Source: Lautropia mirabilis
Lineage (GTDB): Bacteria; Pseudomonadota; Gammaproteobacteria; Burkholderiales; Burkholderiaceae_E
DNA: 64,000 nt
Direction of reading: 5' to 3'
Assembly: GCF_900637555.1 (NCBI RefSeq)
Contig: NZ_LR134378.1
Location: 2,056,001-2,120,000 of the forward strand
Part shown: positions 47,412 to 55,144 of the stretch, piece by piece
Numbering within the stretch: the first letter of the stretch is position 1
How the letters are laid out: every line of letters starts with the position of its first letter
Notes under the pieces: model-generated
Database searches by the model: none
What the model was told of the DNA's origin: nothing
The model's input: the letters and a program-made list of their open reading frames with translations, nothing else
Program-made: the position numbers and the translations under genes

Positions 47412-47444
47412 AAAAAAACCGGCACAGGCATGAACCTGTGCCGG
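47412..47444 (-). terminator. Strong intrinsic terminator of the metal-ATPase operon
   Basis: On the minus strand a perfect 10-bp stem CCGGCACAGG / CCTGTGCCGG (47444-47419, loop of 6 nt), followed by seven T residues (47418-47412). It lies 30 bp after the ATPase stop and closes the six-gene leftward operon. Confidence 0.92.
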
Positions 47445-47474
47445 CCTGTCTGCCGGAGGCGAGGAGGTGGGCCG

Positions 47475-49754
47475 TTAGCCTGCCGCCTTGCCGGGCCGGG
47501 TGTGGTTTACGGGGGCAGGCAGGGCCTTGGGCGATGCCTTGGCGCCTTTCTTGCCCTTGCGTGTGGAACCCGGCACTGCCTGCAGGCCGCCGCGCAGGGC
47601 GTTGAGCAGGATGGCGATGGTGCTGCCGTTGTGCAGGACCGAGGTGGCGATGGGGCTGAGCTTGCCGGTGGCGGCACCGGCCAGGATGGCAGTGTTGGCG
47701 CCGACGATGAGCTTGAAGTTGGTGTCGATCTGCTTCATCGTGCGGTTGGCAATGGCCTTGGCATCGGCTACGCGGGCGATGTCGTCTTCCAGCAGCGCGA
47801 TGTCGGAAGTCAGACGTGCCAGGTCGGCGCCCCGCTGCATAGCGATGCCGACGTGCGCACCGGCCAGGGCCGGGGCGTCGTTCATGCCGTCGCCCACGAA
47901 GGCGATCTTCGCACCACTCTCGGTCAGCTCGTGCAGGATGCGGGCCTTGTCCTCGGGCATCAGCTGGGCATGGTAGGCGTCCAGACCCAGGTCACGGGCC
48001 AGCTCGGCGGCACGGACTTCGTGGTCGCCCGTCAGCATCAGGATGCGCTTGACGCCCAGGGTGCGCAGGCGCTTGAGCGTCTGGGCCGTATTGGCGCGCA
48101 GGCTGTCCTTCAGGGCGATGATGCCCAGCAGTCGGCCACCCAGGCCGATGTAGAGCGGGGTCTTGCCTTCAGCCTGCAGGCGCTCGATATCCTCCTCGTG
48201 AGCGCCCATGTCAATGGACTCGTGCTCTTCGAGGAAGTGGCGCGAGCCGACCACGACGCGCTTGCCCTGGATGACGCTGGCCACACCGTGGGCGGCGATG
48301 AAGTCGACCTCCTCGTGCGGGAAGTGGCGGTTGCTGTGCCGGCGGGCGGCCTCGACCACAGCATGTGCCAGCGGGTGGAAGTAATGCTCTTCCACCGAGG
48401 CAGCCAGGTCGAGCACGTCCGTGGGATCGAACTCGGGGTCGAAGGCCAGCACGTCGGTGACGACCAGGGTGCCCGTGGTGAGGGTACCGGTCTTGTCGAA
48501 GACGAAGGTGTCGGCCTGGGACAGGCGCTCCAGTGCGTCACCGCCCTTGAACAGCACGCCGTCACGGCCGGCGGTGTACATGGCGGACTTGAAGGCGACC
48601 GGGGTGGAGAGCTTGAGCGCGCAGGCGTAGTCGGCCTGCAGCACGGCGGCAGCCCGCTTCCAGTTGCGTGACACCAGCCAGGTGCTGCCGGCCAGGCCCA
48701 GGATCCAGGGCACCAGCTTGTCGGCCAGGCGGTCGGCGGTGAGCTGGGTGCCGCTCTTGACCTGCAGGGCGTGCTGGACGTAGTTGGCAATGCGGGCGCT
48801 GGCCGTGCCGGTACCGACATGCTCGGCGTAGATGCGGATGCGGCCTTCCTCGATGACGGTGCCGCAGAGCACGCTGTCACCCCGCTGGCGCAGCGCCGGC
48901 ACGCTCTCGCCGGTCATGCTGGCCTCGTTGACGGTGGCCTCGCCGCTCAGCACGGTGCCATCAACGGGGATGACGGCGCCAGCCGCACAGATGACGGTGT
49001 CGCCGACCACCACCTGGGCGGCGTCGATCTGCAGCTCCTCGCCGTCGCGCTCGACCCAGACCGTGTCGGCATCGGGATGCAGCAGGTGCTTGAGCAGGTC
49101 GTCGGAGCGGCGGGCGATGGACTCTTCCAGATACTCGCCCAGCGCCAGCATGAAGAGCGTGGCGTTGGCGGCCATCTGGTCGCCGCTGGCGGTGGAAATG
49201 GCCACGGCCAGCGCTTCCAGCACGTGGTTGTTGAGGCCTTCCTTGAGCAGATCCTCGATGGCGTCCTTGTACAGGGGAAGCGAGACGGCCAGCGTGGCCG
49301 GTTTCGCCAGCGGCTGGGGCACCTTGTTGGTGGTCAGCAGCAGCAGCGCGCTGGCCAGCAGGTCACCGCCGGTGGACAGCACGTTCTCGCCGGCCTTGCG
49401 CTTCTCGCAGCTGGCGGCCTGGACGGCGGCGCCGCTGGCGCCAGTGCAGACCGAGGCTGGAATGTGCGAGAGCACGCGCTGCAGCTTGGGGATGCTGGTC
49501 TTCTTGCCGTCGAACTGGATGGCGATGGAACGTGCTGCCGGGTTCAGGCGCACGCCGGTAACACCGGGCTGGTCACGTACCACGCGTTCCAGTGCCTGAG
49601 GCGCCAGCTTGGCGCTGCCCTTGGGCAGCGTGTAGCGATAGCGGACTCGGCCGTGCGACTGGTGAGCCACATCGAGCGTCTCGAACAGCAGGGGGGCTGC
49701 GGCGTTGGAGGAAGAAGGGCGCCCTTTGGCGTCCGGCTGTTGTTCCAGGGGCAT
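47475..49754 (-). CDS. P1B-type metal-transporting ATPase (FezB-like candidate)
   Basis: A 759-residue heavy-metal P-type ATPase. The N-terminal region (residues about 25-90) is an HMA-like fold without the CxxC metal site, carrying instead GRVRYRY at 35-41. The ATPase core is complete: TGES at 281-284, DKTGTLTTG with phosphorylated D420, HP motif in EEHYFHPLAHAVVEAA, and VGDGMNDAPAL. The TM metal motif is Y-A-C-A-L-K (C378), not CPC, so it is not a copper- or zinc-type CPC pump. Last gene of the operon. Start at ATG 49754; a TTG nine codons upstream has no better context. Context suggests loading metal into a storage compartment, by analogy with FezB of ferrosomes; export of Mn or another metal is the alternative. 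Confidence 0.88.
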   Translation of the reverse strand: MPLEQQPDAKGRPSSSNAAAPLLFETLDVAHQSHGRVRYRYTLPKGSAKLAPQALERVVRDQPGVTGVRLNPAARSIAIQFDGKKTSIPKLQRVLSHIPASVCTGASGAAVQAASCEKRKAGENVLSTGGDLLASALLLLTTNKVPQPLAKPATLAVSLPLYKDAIEDLLKEGLNNHVLEALAVAISTASGDQMAANATLFMLALGEYLEESIARRSDDLLKHLLHPDADTVWVERDGEELQIDAAQVVVGDTVICAAGAVIPVDGTVLSGEATVNEASMTGESVPALRQRGDSVLCGTVIEEGRIRIYAEHVGTGTASARIANYVQHALQVKSGTQLTADRLADKLVPWILGLAGSTWLVSRNWKRAAAVLQADYACALKLSTPVAFKSAMYTAGRDGVLFKGGDALERLSQADTFVFDKTGTLTTGTLVVTDVLAFDPEFDPTDVLDLAASVEEHYFHPLAHAVVEAARRHSNRHFPHEEVDFIAAHGVASVIQGKRVVVGSRHFLEEHESIDMGAHEEDIERLQAEGKTPLYIGLGGRLLGIIALKDSLRANTAQTLKRLRTLGVKRILMLTGDHEVRAAELARDLGLDAYHAQLMPEDKARILHELTESGAKIAFVGDGMNDAPALAGAHVGIAMQRGADLARLTSDIALLEDDIARVADAKAIANRTMKQIDTNFKLIVGANTAILAGAATGKLSPIATSVLHNGSTIAILLNALRGGLQAVPGSTRKGKKGAKASPKALPAPVNHTRPGKAAG

Positions 49755-49874
49755 GACGTGCAATGAATGCGTGGATGGCAAGGCGTGTGGTGGGAACCGA
49801 AAGACCGGCTGGACCGGTGCATCCGACGGCTTATGGCACCGGCTGCCCTGGGGGCTGGCCGGGCCTGGGGTGGA

Positions 49875-50522
49875 TCAGTCCTCGGCGTTTTCCTGTTCGG
49901 CCGCGACTTCGGCCTTCAGGTCGGCGATCTGCTCCTTGAACTCCTCGACGCTGCCAGCCACACCGGCGTAGAGCTTCATGCCCATGCGGATGAGCTTGGC
50001 GCGCTTCTCGGGATCACCCAGCACATAGGCGGCAGCGCCACCCAGCAGCAGACCCAGGATGAACTGTTCCGTCTGACGGTTGCCACCGAACAGGCCCGAC
50101 AGACCCAAGCTTTGCCAGGCACTGTGACCGTTGGCCTGAGCGGCATTGGGGAAGGCGCCATTGACGTTGGCGTTGGGCGTGCTGGCATTCTGCGGGAAGC
50201 CGTTGAAACCCTGTCCGTTGAAACCTTGAGCATTGAAGCCCTGGCTGTTGAAGCCTTGGCCATTGAAGCCCTGACCGTTGAAACCCTGACCGTTGAAACC
50301 CTGACCGTTGAAACCCTGGCCGTTGAAACCCTGGCCGTTGAAGCCTTGCGGGTTGAAGGCGTTGCCATAGGCAGCCTGATTGAAGCCGCCATTGCCGTAG
50401 CCGTTGTCGAAGCCCTGGTTGGGGTAAGCCTGGTTGTCGTTGGAATCCTGATCCTGGTTGTCGTTGTTCCAGGTATTGAATTGATTGTTGCGGTTCGGAT
50501 ACTTCTGATTTTTCTTGGCCAT
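49875..50522 (-). CDS. YtxH-like membrane protein with FG-rich, prion-like N-terminal repeats
   Basis: A 215-residue protein. Residues 1-56 are rich in Asn, Gln, Asp and Tyr (PNRNNQFNTWNNDNQDQD). Then come ten tandem pentapeptides, mostly GFNGQ, with GFNSQ and GFNAQ variants (residues about 59-108). A Gly/Ala-rich hydrophobic segment (FILGLLLGGAAAYVLG, about 154-170) is followed by a basic stretch DPEKRAKLIRMG and an amphipathic acidic coiled coil (SVEEFKEQIADLKAEV), the YtxH layout. GGAG lies 7 nt before ATG 50522. The composition predicts a membrane-tethered disordered brush able to phase-separate. Fifth gene of the operon, 93 bp before the ATPase start region. Confidence 0.8.
   Translation of the reverse strand: MAKKNQKYPNRNNQFNTWNNDNQDQDSNDNQAYPNQGFDNGYGNGGFNQAAYGNAFNPQGFNGQGFNGQGFNGQGFNGQGFNGQGFNGQGFNSQGFNAQGFNGQGFNGFPQNASTPNANVNGAFPNAAQANGHSAWQSLGLSGLFGGNRQTEQFILGLLLGGAAAYVLGDPEKRAKLIRMGMKLYAGVAGSVEEFKEQIADLKAEVAAEQENAED
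50200..50349 (-). repeat. Ten 15-bp in-frame repeats encoding GFNGQ units
   Basis: Consecutive 15-bp units of the type GGTTTCAACGGTCAG (minus strand) vary mostly at third codon positions. Reading frame is kept throughout. Slippage could change copy number and repeat length of the FG domain between strains. Confidence 0.9.
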
Positions 50523-50632
50523 TTCAGTTCTCCGTCATGGACAAAGCGTGTGTTCGGGGAACAGGAACCACCCGGGGTCCGAGCGAAAGGGTGTGAGGGC
50601 GGATCCTGGAAATCGATGTGGGCGTGCTGGGC

Positions 50633-51199
50633 TCAGGCCTCGTCACGCGGGGTGTGTGCCATCTGGATGTAGCGGGGGGACGCGTCTTCCTGGCTTTCCG
50701 GAGCGTCGTCGACGAGGTTGTCCACCTCGATGACTGCCGGACGGGCGGGACGATCGGCCAGCCAGCGTTCGGCGGCCAGCACGACGGCTGCGCCGGCGGC
50801 TGCCGTGAGCAGGGCTGCACCCGGTCGGGACTGGCGCAGGGCGCGGGCAGCGGCGGTACCGGCCGAGAGCGCGGCTCCGCCCTGCAGGGCCATGCGCACG
50901 GCGCGGCGGTCAAGGCGCTTGCCAGCGGGTTTGCCGTCGGCGTTGCGGGCACGCTCGGCGCGTTCCTGCAGCGTGACCAGCAGGCCCGTGGTGATGCAGC
51001 CCTTGAAGAAGTCTTCCACGGCGGTGCTGCCCAGTGCCAGGGGCGGATTGCCGGGGCGCAGCGAGGGGAAGGCCTGTGCGCCCAGATTGCGCAACGTGGC
51101 GGGCACGTTGGCAGCAAGGCCGGACCCCTGGGGCGTGCGAGCCGGGGTGGGCAGGTTGGTGCCGAAGGGGGAGCCGGAACGGTTGAAGGGGGTTCTCAT
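50633..51199 (-). CDS. Small membrane-associated protein of the metal-ATPase operon
   Basis: A 188-residue protein of no recognised family. N-terminal 45 residues are Pro/Ser/Gly/Asn-rich and disordered. The middle part has a hydrophobic helix around VEDFFKGCITTGLLVTL, a basic segment (ERARNADGKPAGKRLDRRAVRMALQ) and a Gly/Ala-rich hydrophobic stretch GAALLTAAAGAAVVLAAERWL (about residues 125-148). The C-terminus is acidic (VIEVDNLVDDAPESQED). Fourth gene of the operon, 24 bp after the previous one. Start at ATG 51199 lacks a clear ribosome-binding site, so translational coupling is possible. Confidence 0.72.
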   Translation of the reverse strand: MRTPFNRSGSPFGTNLPTPARTPQGSGLAANVPATLRNLGAQAFPSLRPGNPPLALGSTAVEDFFKGCITTGLLVTLQERAERARNADGKPAGKRLDRRAVRMALQGGAALSAGTAAARALRQSRPGAALLTAAAGAAVVLAAERWLADRPARPAVIEVDNLVDDAPESQEDASPRYIQMAHTPRDEA

Positions 51200-51223
51200 G
51201 AAAGGTCAGTGCTGGCGAAAGGG

Positions 51224-51778
51224 TCAGTGCTGGCCGGCGTCGTCATTCGACCCGGATTCGGTCGAAGGCGTGGCGGAGGCCGCGGCCTGCTCGGTCTTGG
51301 GGGTCTGAGGACGCTTGCGGGGGCGACGGCGCGGTGCTGGCGTCTCCTCGGAAGCCTCGCGCGTCGTGGTGCGACGGGTGCTCTTGGGGCTGGCGCCGCC
51401 CGCCTGCGAGGTGCTGGCGCTGCGCGCCGCCCGCCTGCGGGTGCCTGTTGCGCTGCGGCTGCCCTTCTTCGGTGCCGGAGCCTCCTCGTGCGGGGCGGGC
51501 AGCAGCAGGGCGCTGGCGTCTTCATAGGCGCTGTCGGCATCATCGGCGTGGGCGGCGCTGCGGCGATGCAGCTTGTCCGCCACCTTGCGACGCATTTCGG
51601 CGCCGGTCTCGCGCACGGTGTCCAGACCGTCGCTGGCTTTCTGTTTCAGCGTGTCGCCAGCCTGACGGATCTGGCTGCCGGCCTTCTTGAGGCCTTGCTG
51701 AACGGCTTTGGTGCGCACGAGCTGGGTGGCGGCGGCGCCTGCGGCGGCGCCGATGATCAGGGGCAGGATGGGAAGCAT
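51224..51778 (-). CDS. Membrane-anchored protein with amphipathic helices and basic Ser/Thr/Arg/Pro tail
   Basis: A 184-residue protein of no named family. An N-terminal Gly/Ala-rich hydrophobic segment (MLPILPLIIGAAAGAAATQL) is followed by amphipathic repeats (LKKAGSQIRQAGDTLKQKASDGL, about residues 28-70), like YtxH or phasin-type membrane-surface helices. The last 90 residues are histone H1-like: alternating Lys/Arg with Ser, Thr, Pro, Ala (RRRPRKRPQTPK), a likely disordered polycationic tail. GGAG precedes ATG 51778 in the same context (GGAGAACTGAA) found before the FG-repeat gene. Third gene of the operon, 3 bp after the previous stop. Confidence 0.76.
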   Translation of the reverse strand: MLPILPLIIGAAAGAAATQLVRTKAVQQGLKKAGSQIRQAGDTLKQKASDGLDTVRETGAEMRRKVADKLHRRSAAHADDADSAYEDASALLLPAPHEEAPAPKKGSRSATGTRRRAARSASTSQAGGASPKSTRRTTTREASEETPAPRRRPRKRPQTPKTEQAAASATPSTESGSNDDAGQH

Positions 51779-51781
51779 GGT

Positions 51782-52567
51782 TCAGTTCTCCGGGTCATGG
51801 GAGGGAGACCAGGCGGCATCGGTGGAATCGTCCGTTTCGTCCGGATGGTCGGAAGGCGCGGCCTGGCCGCTGCAGTCGCAGGCGGCGGCGCAGGCGGCGC
51901 GCTGTTCGCGCAGGATGCGGGCGTGGCGCCCGCCCTGCACGGCCAGGCTGCCGACGACGGCACCGGCCACCAGCATGGGGTGGGCCGCGCGCAGCACGGT
52001 GCCTGTGAAGCCCAGAACGCCCCCCTGACGGGTGAGCAGGGCAAAGAACGCTTCCATGGCGTCACCGATGACGCCATGGCTGACATGGGCCTGCGCCGGG
52101 TCGATGCCCTGGGCGGCATGCAGTCGCTCACGGTCGACGGCGGCCTGCCAGGCACGTTGCAGCGCGGGCAGGTCACGGGTGAGCAGCTCGGACTGCAGGC
52201 GCTCGAGCTGGCGGCGCAGCGTGGGGTCAGGGGTGAGGGTGACCAGCTGCTGGTAGACGCCGGCGCTGTTGAACGTGCCCTGCATGGCGCGCTCCAGGCT
52301 TTCACGCCAGCCGGTGACCAGGGGCTCCGGGGCAGGAGCGGGCAGGGCCGGGAGCGGAATGCCGAACTGCTGATACAGGTTGCCCAGCAGCGTGATGCGC
52401 TGGACGGTGCTGTCGAGCAGGGTCTGCAGCGGCGCCTGGTTGCCGTGGGTGGCCACGGCCGACGTGTAGAAGGCCCAGGAGGCCTGCTGTTCCTGCAGGG
52501 CGACAGCGAGGATCGGGCCGGGGCCACCGTAGGCCAGGTCAGGGCGCGGCATGGCGAAGTTGTTCAT
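51782..52567 (-). CDS. Helical protein, possibly degenerate ferritin-like, with C-terminal membrane segment
   Basis: A 261-residue protein with no clear family match. The N-terminal half (ILAVALQEQQASWAFYTSAVATHG ... LLDSTVQRITLLGNLYQQFGIPLPALP) follows the spacing of ferritin-like DUF2202 helices, but the usual metal-binding Glu/His positions hold Gln, Thr or Arg. A second repeat-like helical pair follows (QGTFNSAGVYQQLV, LRRQLERLQSELLTRDLPALQRAWQAA). A Gly/Val/Ala-rich hydrophobic segment (PMLVAGAVVGSLAVQGG, about 205-222) and a Cys-containing acidic tail (CAAACDCSGQ) end the protein. Second gene of the operon; its start overlaps the end of the preceding gene by 29 bp. Confidence 0.7.
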   Translation of the reverse strand: MNNFAMPRPDLAYGGPGPILAVALQEQQASWAFYTSAVATHGNQAPLQTLLDSTVQRITLLGNLYQQFGIPLPALPAPAPEPLVTGWRESLERAMQGTFNSAGVYQQLVTLTPDPTLRRQLERLQSELLTRDLPALQRAWQAAVDRERLHAAQGIDPAQAHVSHGVIGDAMEAFFALLTRQGGVLGFTGTVLRAAHPMLVAGAVVGSLAVQGGRHARILREQRAACAAACDCSGQAAPSDHPDETDDSTDAAWSPSHDPEN

Positions 52568-52922
52568 GGGCTTCATCCAGAATGGTTCGCAGGGTCTGCG
52601 CCGCGGGCGTGTCGGCATTGGCCAGCAGATCGGGCCACGCGGCATTCGGGATCACGGCGGGATCGTATTCGATGGTGCAGGAGCGTGCCAGCAGGTTCCA
52701 GCTGATGTTCTTCACGCCCCGGATGCGGCGCAGGGCCGTGGTGATGGCCTCCGACCGGCCTTCGGGCCCATCGAAGCTGACGCCATTGAGGGCACCCTTG
52801 CCGAGCTTGAGACGCAGGCGACCAGGCACCTGATGGGCGATGGTGAGCCAGGGACGGAAATGCGCGAGCACGACGCCCGGCGGCGTCTGCGGGGTGAAGG
52901 TGACGGGGGTATCGGCAGCCAT
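52539..52922 (-). CDS. Small HMA-like (HMA_2-type) protein
   Basis: A 127-residue protein and first gene of the operon. The core HQVPGRLRLKLGKGAL (H30; GRLRLK at 34-39), then AITTALRRIRGVKNISWNLLARSCTIEYDPAVIP, follows the beta-alpha-beta-beta-alpha-beta pattern of heavy-metal-associated domains, with an Arg/Lys motif in place of the CxxC site. The ATPase N-terminus carries the same kind of motif (GRVRYRY followed by VTGVRLNPAARSIAIQFD), so the two probably arose from one module and may share a partner. Cytosolic or membrane-peripheral. Confidence 0.8.
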   Translation of the reverse strand: MAADTPVTFTPQTPPGVVLAHFRPWLTIAHQVPGRLRLKLGKGALNGVSFDGPEGRSEAITTALRRIRGVKNISWNLLARSCTIEYDPAVIPNAAWPDLLANADTPAAQTLRTILDEAHEQLRHAAP

Positions 52923-54240: not shown

Positions 54241-54507
54241 TCAGAGGATGGCCGTCAGGAAGGTGATGCCGCCCAGGATGAAGCCCGGAGCGTTGGAGAT
54301 GGTGACGGGCCAGTCACGCCCTTTCTTGAAGAGGGCGTAGATGACCCAGAGCAGGCCGTTGACGCAGGCCACGGCCGGCTGGATGGGGTGGCCCTTCTGG
54401 CCGGCCAGGTTCATCTGGATCTGCGGCAGGTAGGCCACGTACATGCCGATGGCAGTGATGGTGGCGATGATGCCCAGGATGCTGGCGGCTTTTGCAGAGA
54501 GTTTCAT
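54241..54507 (-). CDS. SemiSWEET-type transporter (PQ-loop), copy 2
   Basis: An 88-residue membrane protein with three helices, a triple-helix bundle that dimerises to form a sugar transporter. The PQ motif is present in VAYLPQIQMNLAGQKG, followed by PAVACVNGLLWVIYALFKKGRDWPVTISNAPGFILGGITF. Length is standard for SemiSWEETs. It shares most residues with its upstream neighbour, 15 bp away, indicating tandem duplication; a heterodimer is possible. Confidence 0.92.
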   Translation of the reverse strand: MKLSAKAASILGIIATITAIGMYVAYLPQIQMNLAGQKGHPIQPAVACVNGLLWVIYALFKKGRDWPVTISNAPGFILGGITFLTAIL

Positions 54508-54522: not shown

Positions 54523-54786
54523 TCAGAGAGCAGTCCAGAAGGTGATGAGGCCCAGCACGATGCCGGGGGCGTTGGCCAGCGCCACCGGGATGTCGCGCTG
54601 CGGCTTGAAGAGCGCATATATCACCCACAGGGTGCAGTTGATGGCGGCCACCAGCGGCTGCAGGGCGCTGCCTTTCTGGCCGGCCAGGTTCATCTGGATC
54701 TGGGGGATGTAGGATACGTACATCGAGACTGCCGTGATCGTGGCGATGGTGGCCAGGACCTGGGTCTGCCGATCGGTCAGTTGCAT
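54523..54786 (-). CDS. SemiSWEET-type transporter (PQ-loop), copy 1
   Basis: An 87-residue three-helix membrane protein. PQ motif in VSYIPQIQMNLAGQKG, then PLVAAINCTLWVIYALFKPQRDIPVALANAPGIVLGLITF. Start at ATG 54786; the frame extends upstream only through the 13-bp tandem repeat, which is not coding. First gene of the two-gene unit with its paralogue. Confidence 0.92.
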   Translation of the reverse strand: MQLTDRQTQVLATIATITAVSMYVSYIPQIQMNLAGQKGSALQPLVAAINCTLWVIYALFKPQRDIPVALANAPGIVLGLITFWTAL

Positions 54787-55053
54787 GGGGAGGATTCCGT
54801 GGGAGAGGGGAGGACGGTGTCTTTCTGCCAGGCGTGTCGGCCTGTGACACACAGTCATCAATATAACCTCACGGCAGGCAAGGTAGTGCGCTTGACCCTG
54901 AATCTCGTTGCAAGGTGGATGGAAATCATTGGCCGGGATGATGGACCGACGTTCAATGGCCCGATTCGTGAAACCGTGCTGACAGAGAGGGGCTGGAGGG
55001 AAGGATTGTGTCGCCGGCCATGAGGCACGCCAGGGAGCATAGGCAGATGGCAT

Positions 55054-55144
55054 GTACAGGGAGCATGTGCAGGGAGCATGTGCAGGGAGCATGTGCAGGG
55101 AGCATGTGCAGGGAGCATGTGCAGGGAGCATGTGCAGGGAGCAT
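55054..55144. repeat. Seven tandem copies of a 13-bp repeat
   Basis: Seven head-to-tail units of GTGCAGGGAGCAT (first copy GTACAGGGAGCAT), 91 bp in all, within the gene-free stretch 54787-55258. A partial copy (CAGGGAGCAT) lies at 55031-55040. The unit is not a multiple of three and no frame through it looks coding. Probable variable-number tandem repeat. Confidence 0.93.

Follow-up and report, generated by a model that had tools for sequence, protein, structure and literature searches.

Does the leftward operon of six genes that lies at 47475-52922 of the stretch of Lautropia mirabilis DNA analysed here (the window, 64,000 nucleotides of contig NZ_LR134378.1, in a genome that is a single contig of 3.17 Mb) encode a ferrosome-type system for metal storage? 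Ferrosomes are organelles in which bacteria store iron; FezB, the transporter of fez clusters, is a pump of the P1B-6 type. A first-pass annotation made from the sequence letters had read the operon as a fez-like cluster in a member of the Burkholderiales, and the 16S sequence of the host (94.0% to Caballeronia) agreed with that order. As judged from the clade of the ATPase encoded by gene 6, from its motifs and from the neighbouring genes, the operon is probably an extended version of a fez-type (ferrosome-type) cluster for metal storage.

Results

The ATPase encoded by gene 6

The window ATPase has His-Asn (HN) in transmembrane segment (TM) 6 and no CPC in TM4 or elsewhere, which is the combination that characterises P1B-6 pumps; HN in TM6 is given as a P1B6 feature in PMC9374683. 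The replacement of CPC by Y-A-C-A-L-K and the HMA-like N-terminus devoid of CxxC, both described in the first-pass annotation, were found again (motif at 48632-48609; no CxxC within the first 160 residues), and the N-terminus, which bears R-x-R, matched Pfam HMA_2 with an E-value (E) of 0.005. The TTG start chosen in that annotation gives a protein of 768 aa and the in-frame ATG at 49754 one of 759 aa.

Phylogenetic trees were built with a reference set of mixed P-type ATPases from a generic-pattern contig scan, which carries no frequency claim. In a 99-row tree, 39 of the 41 rows with a TM4 of the D-x-x-C-x-x-[KR] type grouped together with a support of 98, the other two being Priestia and one Bacteroidales row. 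In a 48-row tree, whose bootstrap was not fully settled, 41 rows formed one clade with the window pump inside it (ultrafast bootstrap/Shimodaira-Hasegawa-like approximate likelihood ratio test 100/99), together with Desulfovibrionaceae, clostridial, methanogen and Rhodobacter pumps. Half A of this clade comprises clostridia, methanogens, Mailhella (Desulfovibrionaceae), a myxococcal metagenome-assembled genome (MAG), Deinococcus and, from the window's order, four genomes of family f19; half B comprises alpha- and gammaproteobacteria plus a set, B1, that contains the window. Fez clusters are known from Desulfovibrionaceae, clostridia and phototrophic alphaproteobacteria, and the clade holds members of these wider groups, not the published strains. 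The CPC-bearing pumps with HN, labelled CtpC-like here after a description in PMC9374683, formed a separate group (96/87 in the 48-row tree), the nearest outgroup of the 41-row clade among the rows used.

The TM4 motif was present in all 45 clade members examined (L145 was checked separately) and the TM6 HN in 44 of them, the exception, L142, ending before the TM6 site. An R-x-R string within the first 70 residues was also found in 45/45 with a loose pattern, and is a clade-wide trait; the N-terminus lacked CxxC in 43/45, L068 and L014 having one each. The window pump shared 83% identity with its two nearest relatives, the ratio of nonsynonymous to synonymous substitution rates (dN/dS) being 0.10-0.24. 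Its genome encodes two other E1-E2 ATPases, both with CPC. The putative identification of the window ATPase as FezB draws on these sequence hallmarks and on the neighbours described below.

A Priestia plasmid (L019 3129-6955) carries an HN pump whose TM4 reads D-F-I-C-G-I-K and which does not belong to the main clade; three HMA2 genes and the gene of a small one-helix protein flank it.

Organisation and conservation of the operon

As the first-pass annotation had described, six minus-strand genes follow one another closely and end at a strong terminator with a 14-pair stem and a run of T. Genes 1 and 2 overlap by 29 bases (the ATG of gene 2 is at 52567) and the later gaps measure 3, 24, 110 and 120 bases. 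The region holds six terminator-like sites where 3.4 are expected, and the stem of the operon's site is the longest of them; a sigma-70-like promoter was not found (0.4 expected).

A survey of congener neighbourhoods, which the same annotation had proposed, showed all six genes in unchanged order in seven of eight congeners. Gene 1 was found in the window and in these seven, and in no other of the 61 genomes searched; the eighth congener (G005), without a gene-1 match, is an 81% complete draft in 720 contigs. Of 16 pairwise comparisons made, all 15 with a finite dS gave a dN/dS below 1 (range 0.10-0.74), and because of this and of the collinearity we regard the six genes as more than chance. 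An origin as chance or lineage-specific small open reading frames (ORFs) is ruled out by the collinearity in seven congeners and by homologues in other phyla.

A search with the ATPase sequence matched 13 of 399 genomes of the order at E 1e-130, including the window and three congeners, and 6 of 398 genomes of the phylum, including the window, at E 1e-150; no Clostridioides or Rhodopseudomonas pump was among the matches listed in plasmid searches. Two genomes from other families of the order (G615 and G455) have genes 1, 2, 3, 4, 5 and the ATPase in the same order, the ATPase being 60% and 55% identical to that of the window (that of G455 is cut by a contig end), and in G615 a FezC-like gene stands in front of the operon. 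Related operons also occur in Azospirillum, where gene 2 is missing and the FezC-like gene is present, and in Arcobacter and gammaproteobacterium BB4, the gene 3 of BB4 being recognised only at E 0.021. In Arcobacter AZ-2023 (L015 5633-7746) the pump gene is split into frames of 100 aa and 570 aa; the near-identical DSM 115972 has one frame.

The four f19 genomes (L143 5096-8065, L144 5713-8996, L145 5007-8365 and L146 2419-5345) carry a compact cluster with a DUF6110-like gene, a FezB-like pump and an HMA plus FezC-like gene. These clusters group with Mailhella, possibly by transfer; the 16S of one f19 genome (G054) is at 89.9% to Cupriavidus.

The HMA-like protein and the small membrane proteins

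The first-pass annotation had described gene 1 as HMA-like with R-x-R, which agrees with its match to Pfam HMA_2 (E 8.3e-6), even though the 26.3 bits lie under the curated cut-off of 30. The Arcobacter counterpart (31.3 bits) and HMA paralogues of Azospirillum, Cereibacter, Hahella and Mailhella reach the cut-off; the Azospirillum counterpart (27.3 bits) is below it.

The remaining small proteins had been described as a hydrophobic segment with charged or disordered tails. They are small membrane proteins, and the description holds except for gene 2, which adds a ferritin-like domain; this domain and the PacL/DUF6110 kinship of gene 5 had been missed. In profile-profile comparison the gene-5 family showed a remote likeness to a DUF6110-type set (hhalign 94.9%, E 4.2e-8), and within a small set the gene-5 hidden Markov model (HMM) scored a Deinococcus DUF6110 protein at 6e-9. 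Gene 5 or its homologues matched DUF5132 and YtxH weakly, always under the curated cut-offs, and none of the six proteins matched Pfam DUF1490 up to E 1. The two invariant glycines of gene 5, G157 and G161, have GxxxG and not GxxG spacing. Gene 3 is related to gene 5 (profile-profile 95.7%, E 1e-8). Gene 4 showed no detectable relation in the profile comparison; its counterparts were found in Azospirillum, Arcobacter, Vibrio, Cereibacter and Hahella.

Gene 5 is the gene immediately upstream of the pump, an arrangement shared with the relatives. A gene-5 homologue was found in all 24 clade-B loci (11 of them trained the HMM; the untrained ones include L036, L049-L053, L141 and L142), and of the 23 clade-A loci, 21 had a DUF6110-type gene upstream of the pump (11 of these served to train the HMM), the two misses beginning within 700 bases of a contig end. 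According to PMC9374683 and PMC13043812, DUF6110 proteins are called PacL-like and adjoin P1B6 ATPases, and the latter source describes PacL proteins as clustering P-ATPases via a GXXG membrane motif. In Clostridioides difficile both FezA, a membrane protein, and FezB, the transporter, are required (PMC12574912); we infer that the clostridial DUF6110 gene is FezA.

The ferritin-like protein encoded by gene 2

Gene 2 consists of a ferritin-like domain and a Gly/Ala-rich segment. Its structure model, in which the helices within residues 15-151 mostly have a predicted local distance difference test score of 70-86, predicts the four-helix fold of ferritins. In an alignment of 12 copies, the five putative di-iron ligands (E, ExxH, E, H) were complete in those of Arcobacter and BB4; each of the ten Burkholderiales copies retains at most two, and that of the window none, the residues there being Q, T, R, T and D. 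A motif of the form [RKQ]-E-[RS]-x-H...H-G is common to the ten Burkholderiales copies and absent from Arcobacter and BB4. What surprises most is this ferritin-like gene, together with its decay.

The BB4 copy alone matched MJ0754 (E 0.0011) in a PDB profile search; the same search with a ten-row gene-2 alignment, one row of which (L017) later looked like another protein, gave no match. A narrow literature search, which says little, found nothing linking DUF2202 with the term ferritin-like. A match of gene 2 to the carboxysome-type Pfam domain CsoSCA_N (E 0.053) was considered noise, given the ferritin-like evidence.

In the alpha/gamma half of the clade (L016 4641-8650, L017 3836-8052 and L033-L037) a Pro/Gly/His/Tyr/Trp-rich protein takes the place of gene 2. 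The protein closes with E-F-W-K-G-A and a membrane helix, and this helix is related to gene 5 (hhalign 94.6%).

The FezC-like gene

FezC is described as a ferrosome cytochrome with homology to DUF4405 in PMC11334425 and PMC10979944. In five congeners, that is, in five of the nine genomes of the genus, a protein that combines HMA_2 with a DUF4405-like hairpin, with two invariant histidines (H236 and H250), is encoded close to the cluster but on the other strand. FezC-like genes were found in 10 of 14 B1 loci (seven of the ten trained the HMM; L049, L053 and L141 did not), and they lie inside the operons of Azospirillum and G615. At the threshold used they also adjoin the pumps of Mailhella, Hahella, the myxococcal MAG L067 and two f19 genomes; the other two f19 genomes scored 0.0018 and 1.3e-4 in a smaller search set. 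L033 and L034 have weak, separate FezC-like ORFs, and the DUF4405-like part alone adjoins the pumps of Arcobacter, BB4 and Sulfurospirillum. No clostridial locus surveyed shows such a gene, and for this reason FezC is perhaps not universal in fez clusters.

Iron-related neighbours and regulation

FeoA, TonB receptors and FecR are encoded beside the Cereibacter cluster, and ChaN and TonB receptors beside one of the Arcobacter clusters. The C. difficile fez cluster is reported to be under iron control by Fur (PMC12574912). The Vibrio and G298 clusters each have a weak Fur-box match upstream (shuffle fractions 0.03 and 0.01), which is not significant because 36 regions were tested. In Rhodopseudomonas palustris, rpa2333-2338 is a fez set, as stated in PMC12016538, and PMC6879726 describes the same genes as a metal-transport set whose expression falls together with that of iron genes under low light. 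Iron is proposed as the metal because of the clade membership of the pump, the iron genes beside related clusters and the rpa2333-2338 data. A narrow literature search for iron granules in L. mirabilis found no relevant paper.

Outside the operon, the window contains a 13-base tandem repeat of 8.8 copies (55031-55144), adjoined by two tandem ORFs (54241-54507 and another ending at 54523) that by eye resemble SemiSWEET-like sugar transporters.

Table 1. Positions of the genes, motifs and signals of the six-gene operon within the window
Feature	Position	Strand	Basis
Gene 1, 127-aa HMA_2-like protein, G-R-L-R-L-K replacing the CxxC metal loop	52539..52922	-	
Gene 2, 261-aa membrane-anchored ferritin-like (DUF2202-type) protein	51782..52567	-	
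Predicted four-helix ferritin-like core of gene 2, residues 11-151	52112..52534	-	structure model; ligand alignment
Gene 2 motif R-E-R-L-H-A-A-Q-G...S-H-G	52073..52132	-	12-copy alignment
Gene 3, 184 aa, N-terminal Gly/Ala-rich membrane segment and charged tail	51224..51778	-	profile comparison
Gene 4, 188 aa, Gly/Ala-rich membrane protein	50633..51199	-	alignment, HMM search
Gene 5, 215 aa, N-G-Q-G-F repeats, one membrane segment and a Glu/Ala/Lys-rich helix; PacL/DUF6110-like	49875..50522	-	
15-base tandem repeat, 9.5 copies, encoding N-G-Q-G-F	50200..50342	.	
Gene 6, 759-aa P1B-type ATPase of the FezB-like clade	47475..49754	-	TIGR01525 E 4.3e-146; trees
TM4 motif D-Y-A-C-A-L-K-L where CPC would stand	48609..48632	-	sequence motif
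TM6 motif L-H-N-G-S-T	47619..47636	-	sequence motif
Intrinsic terminator, 14-pair stem followed by a T-run	47416..47447	-	

Discussion

The first-pass annotation's central claim, that of a fez-like cluster, agreed with the HN of TM6, with the grouping of the pump away from the CPC pumps and with the accessory genes found in the clade, and it failed to find a counterpart in a FezC-like gene or a Fur box. It had also considered that the pump might fall among exporters outside the clade and that the accessory genes might be missing elsewhere; neither was observed.

If the operon is a fez-type cluster, the P1B-6-like ATPase would move a transition metal out of the cytosol and into a membrane compartment, the metal being most likely Fe(II). 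The PacL/DUF6110 relatives encoded by genes 3 and 5 (gene 3 by its likeness to gene 5), together with gene 4, may gather the pump into patches and help to form the compartment membrane. Since an R-x-R strand replaces CxxC, gene 1 and the N-terminus of the pump would probably serve in docking or regulation and not as thiol metallochaperones. The Arcobacter and BB4 gene-2 proteins, with their complete putative ligand set, could oxidise or bind iron at the surface of the compartment; that of the window, because its di-iron site is gone, is probably an adaptor or uses the new His/Glu motif.

Several results weigh against this reading. In the window's genome the FezC-like profile recovered only the N-terminus of the ATPase and no FezC-like gene, and the search in its two nearest relatives gave the same outcome. 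All Pfam DUF4405 matches of the FezC-like proteins are under the curated cut-off, the Mailhella protein having none, and they are therefore named FezC-like only. Window gene 5 has no direct Pfam DUF6110 match, and a DUF6110-type neighbour is not exclusive to the clade, because the CPC-bearing pump L071 also has such a gene upstream. The trees were built without the published FezB of D. magneticus, S. putrefaciens, R. palustris and C. difficile, and NCBIfam assigns the pump to a broad cadmium subfamily (TIGR01512, 374 bits against a cut-off of 313.5). No iron genes were recognised by eye among the ORFs at 44.5-56.5 kb of the window, and the best Fur-box match upstream of gene 1 (10/19 positions of the single consensus used) was not above shuffles (fraction 0.857). 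Finally, a PF00210 ferritin-family gene elsewhere in the genome means that iron storage is not left to the cluster alone.

The main rival is an efflux platform of the PacL/CtpC type, in which small PacL-like proteins would gather the pump into clusters within the inner membrane, and the pump would send metal out to the periplasm without any organelle. We consider it unlikely. In its favour are the relation of gene 5 to DUF6110/PacL scaffolds and of gene 3 to gene 5, the position of the CtpC-like group next to the clade, the DUF6110-type gene upstream of L071, which is a member of that group, and the invariant glycines of gene 5, although their spacing is GxxxG and that of the PacL motif GXXG. 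Against it, the window pump lacks the CPC of CtpC and falls outside the CtpC-like group, the six genes give no DUF1490 match, and related clusters have FezC-like and ferritin-like neighbours. A cluster derived from fez and then repurposed, to store or detoxify another metal (manganese, zinc or cobalt) or mainly to act as a membrane-organising platform, is quite improbable: the dead ferritin site of window gene 2 and the patchy presence of the FezC-like gene within the genus, with the window and its two nearest relatives among those in which it was not found, would fit such a change, but the ATPase is strongly conserved and keeps the TM4 and TM6 residues of the clade. A CtpC-like, Zn/Cd or Cu exporter is supported neither by the trees nor by the motifs, TIGR01512 being a broad-subfamily match that was not used to assign the substrate.

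Within the fez-type reading, we tentatively suggest, as a rather less than even possibility, a hybrid of the two strategies for iron storage known in bacteria. A ferrosome-type subclade would have had a membrane-anchored ferritin that handled iron at the surface of the compartment; in the Burkholderiales this ferritin would have lost its metal site and become structural or re-wired, and the window lineage would then have lost its FezC-like redox partner, which would leave a stripped-down organelle built by scaffolds of the PacL family.

Should the fez-type reading be true, ferrosome-type storage would extend to a Burkholderiales genus, a ferritin-fold protein would be placed inside a ferrosome-type operon, and ferrosome genes would be tied to the scaffolds of PacL effluxosomes by shared protein ancestry. 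The presence or loss of the FezC-like gene in otherwise collinear clusters, and of the ligands in gene 2, would offer natural contrasts between the parts devoted to membrane formation and those devoted to iron redox chemistry.

Comparison with known systems

Compared with HMA_2 small proteins, window gene 1 matches weakly, under the cut-off that only some of its homologues pass. Unlike the DUF2202 ferritin-like proteins (MJ0754, PDB 3q4n and 3q4r), gene 2 carries a C-terminal Gly/Ala-rich membrane segment, and the di-iron ligands have been lost in the ten aligned Burkholderiales copies. The mycobacterial PacL/CtpC effluxosomes (DUF1490) resemble the operon in that a P1B ATPase with HN in TM6 is accompanied by small one-helix membrane proteins from the PacL/DUF6110 superfamily, whereas the TM4 of the window pump reads D-Y-A-C-A-L-K in place of CPC, the pumps belong to separate clades and DUF1490 is not matched.

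The fez clusters of ferrosomes differ from the operon in that the window has six genes, among them a ferritin-like membrane protein and the repeat-bearing gene 5, and no FezC-like gene was found in its genome. What the two have in common are the hallmarks of P1B6-type ATPases, the small DUF6110-type membrane protein that accompanies the pump where the clade member is clostridial, from the Desulfovibrionaceae or, in some cases, from the Burkholderiales, and a FezC-like gene near related clusters, including those of five congeners.

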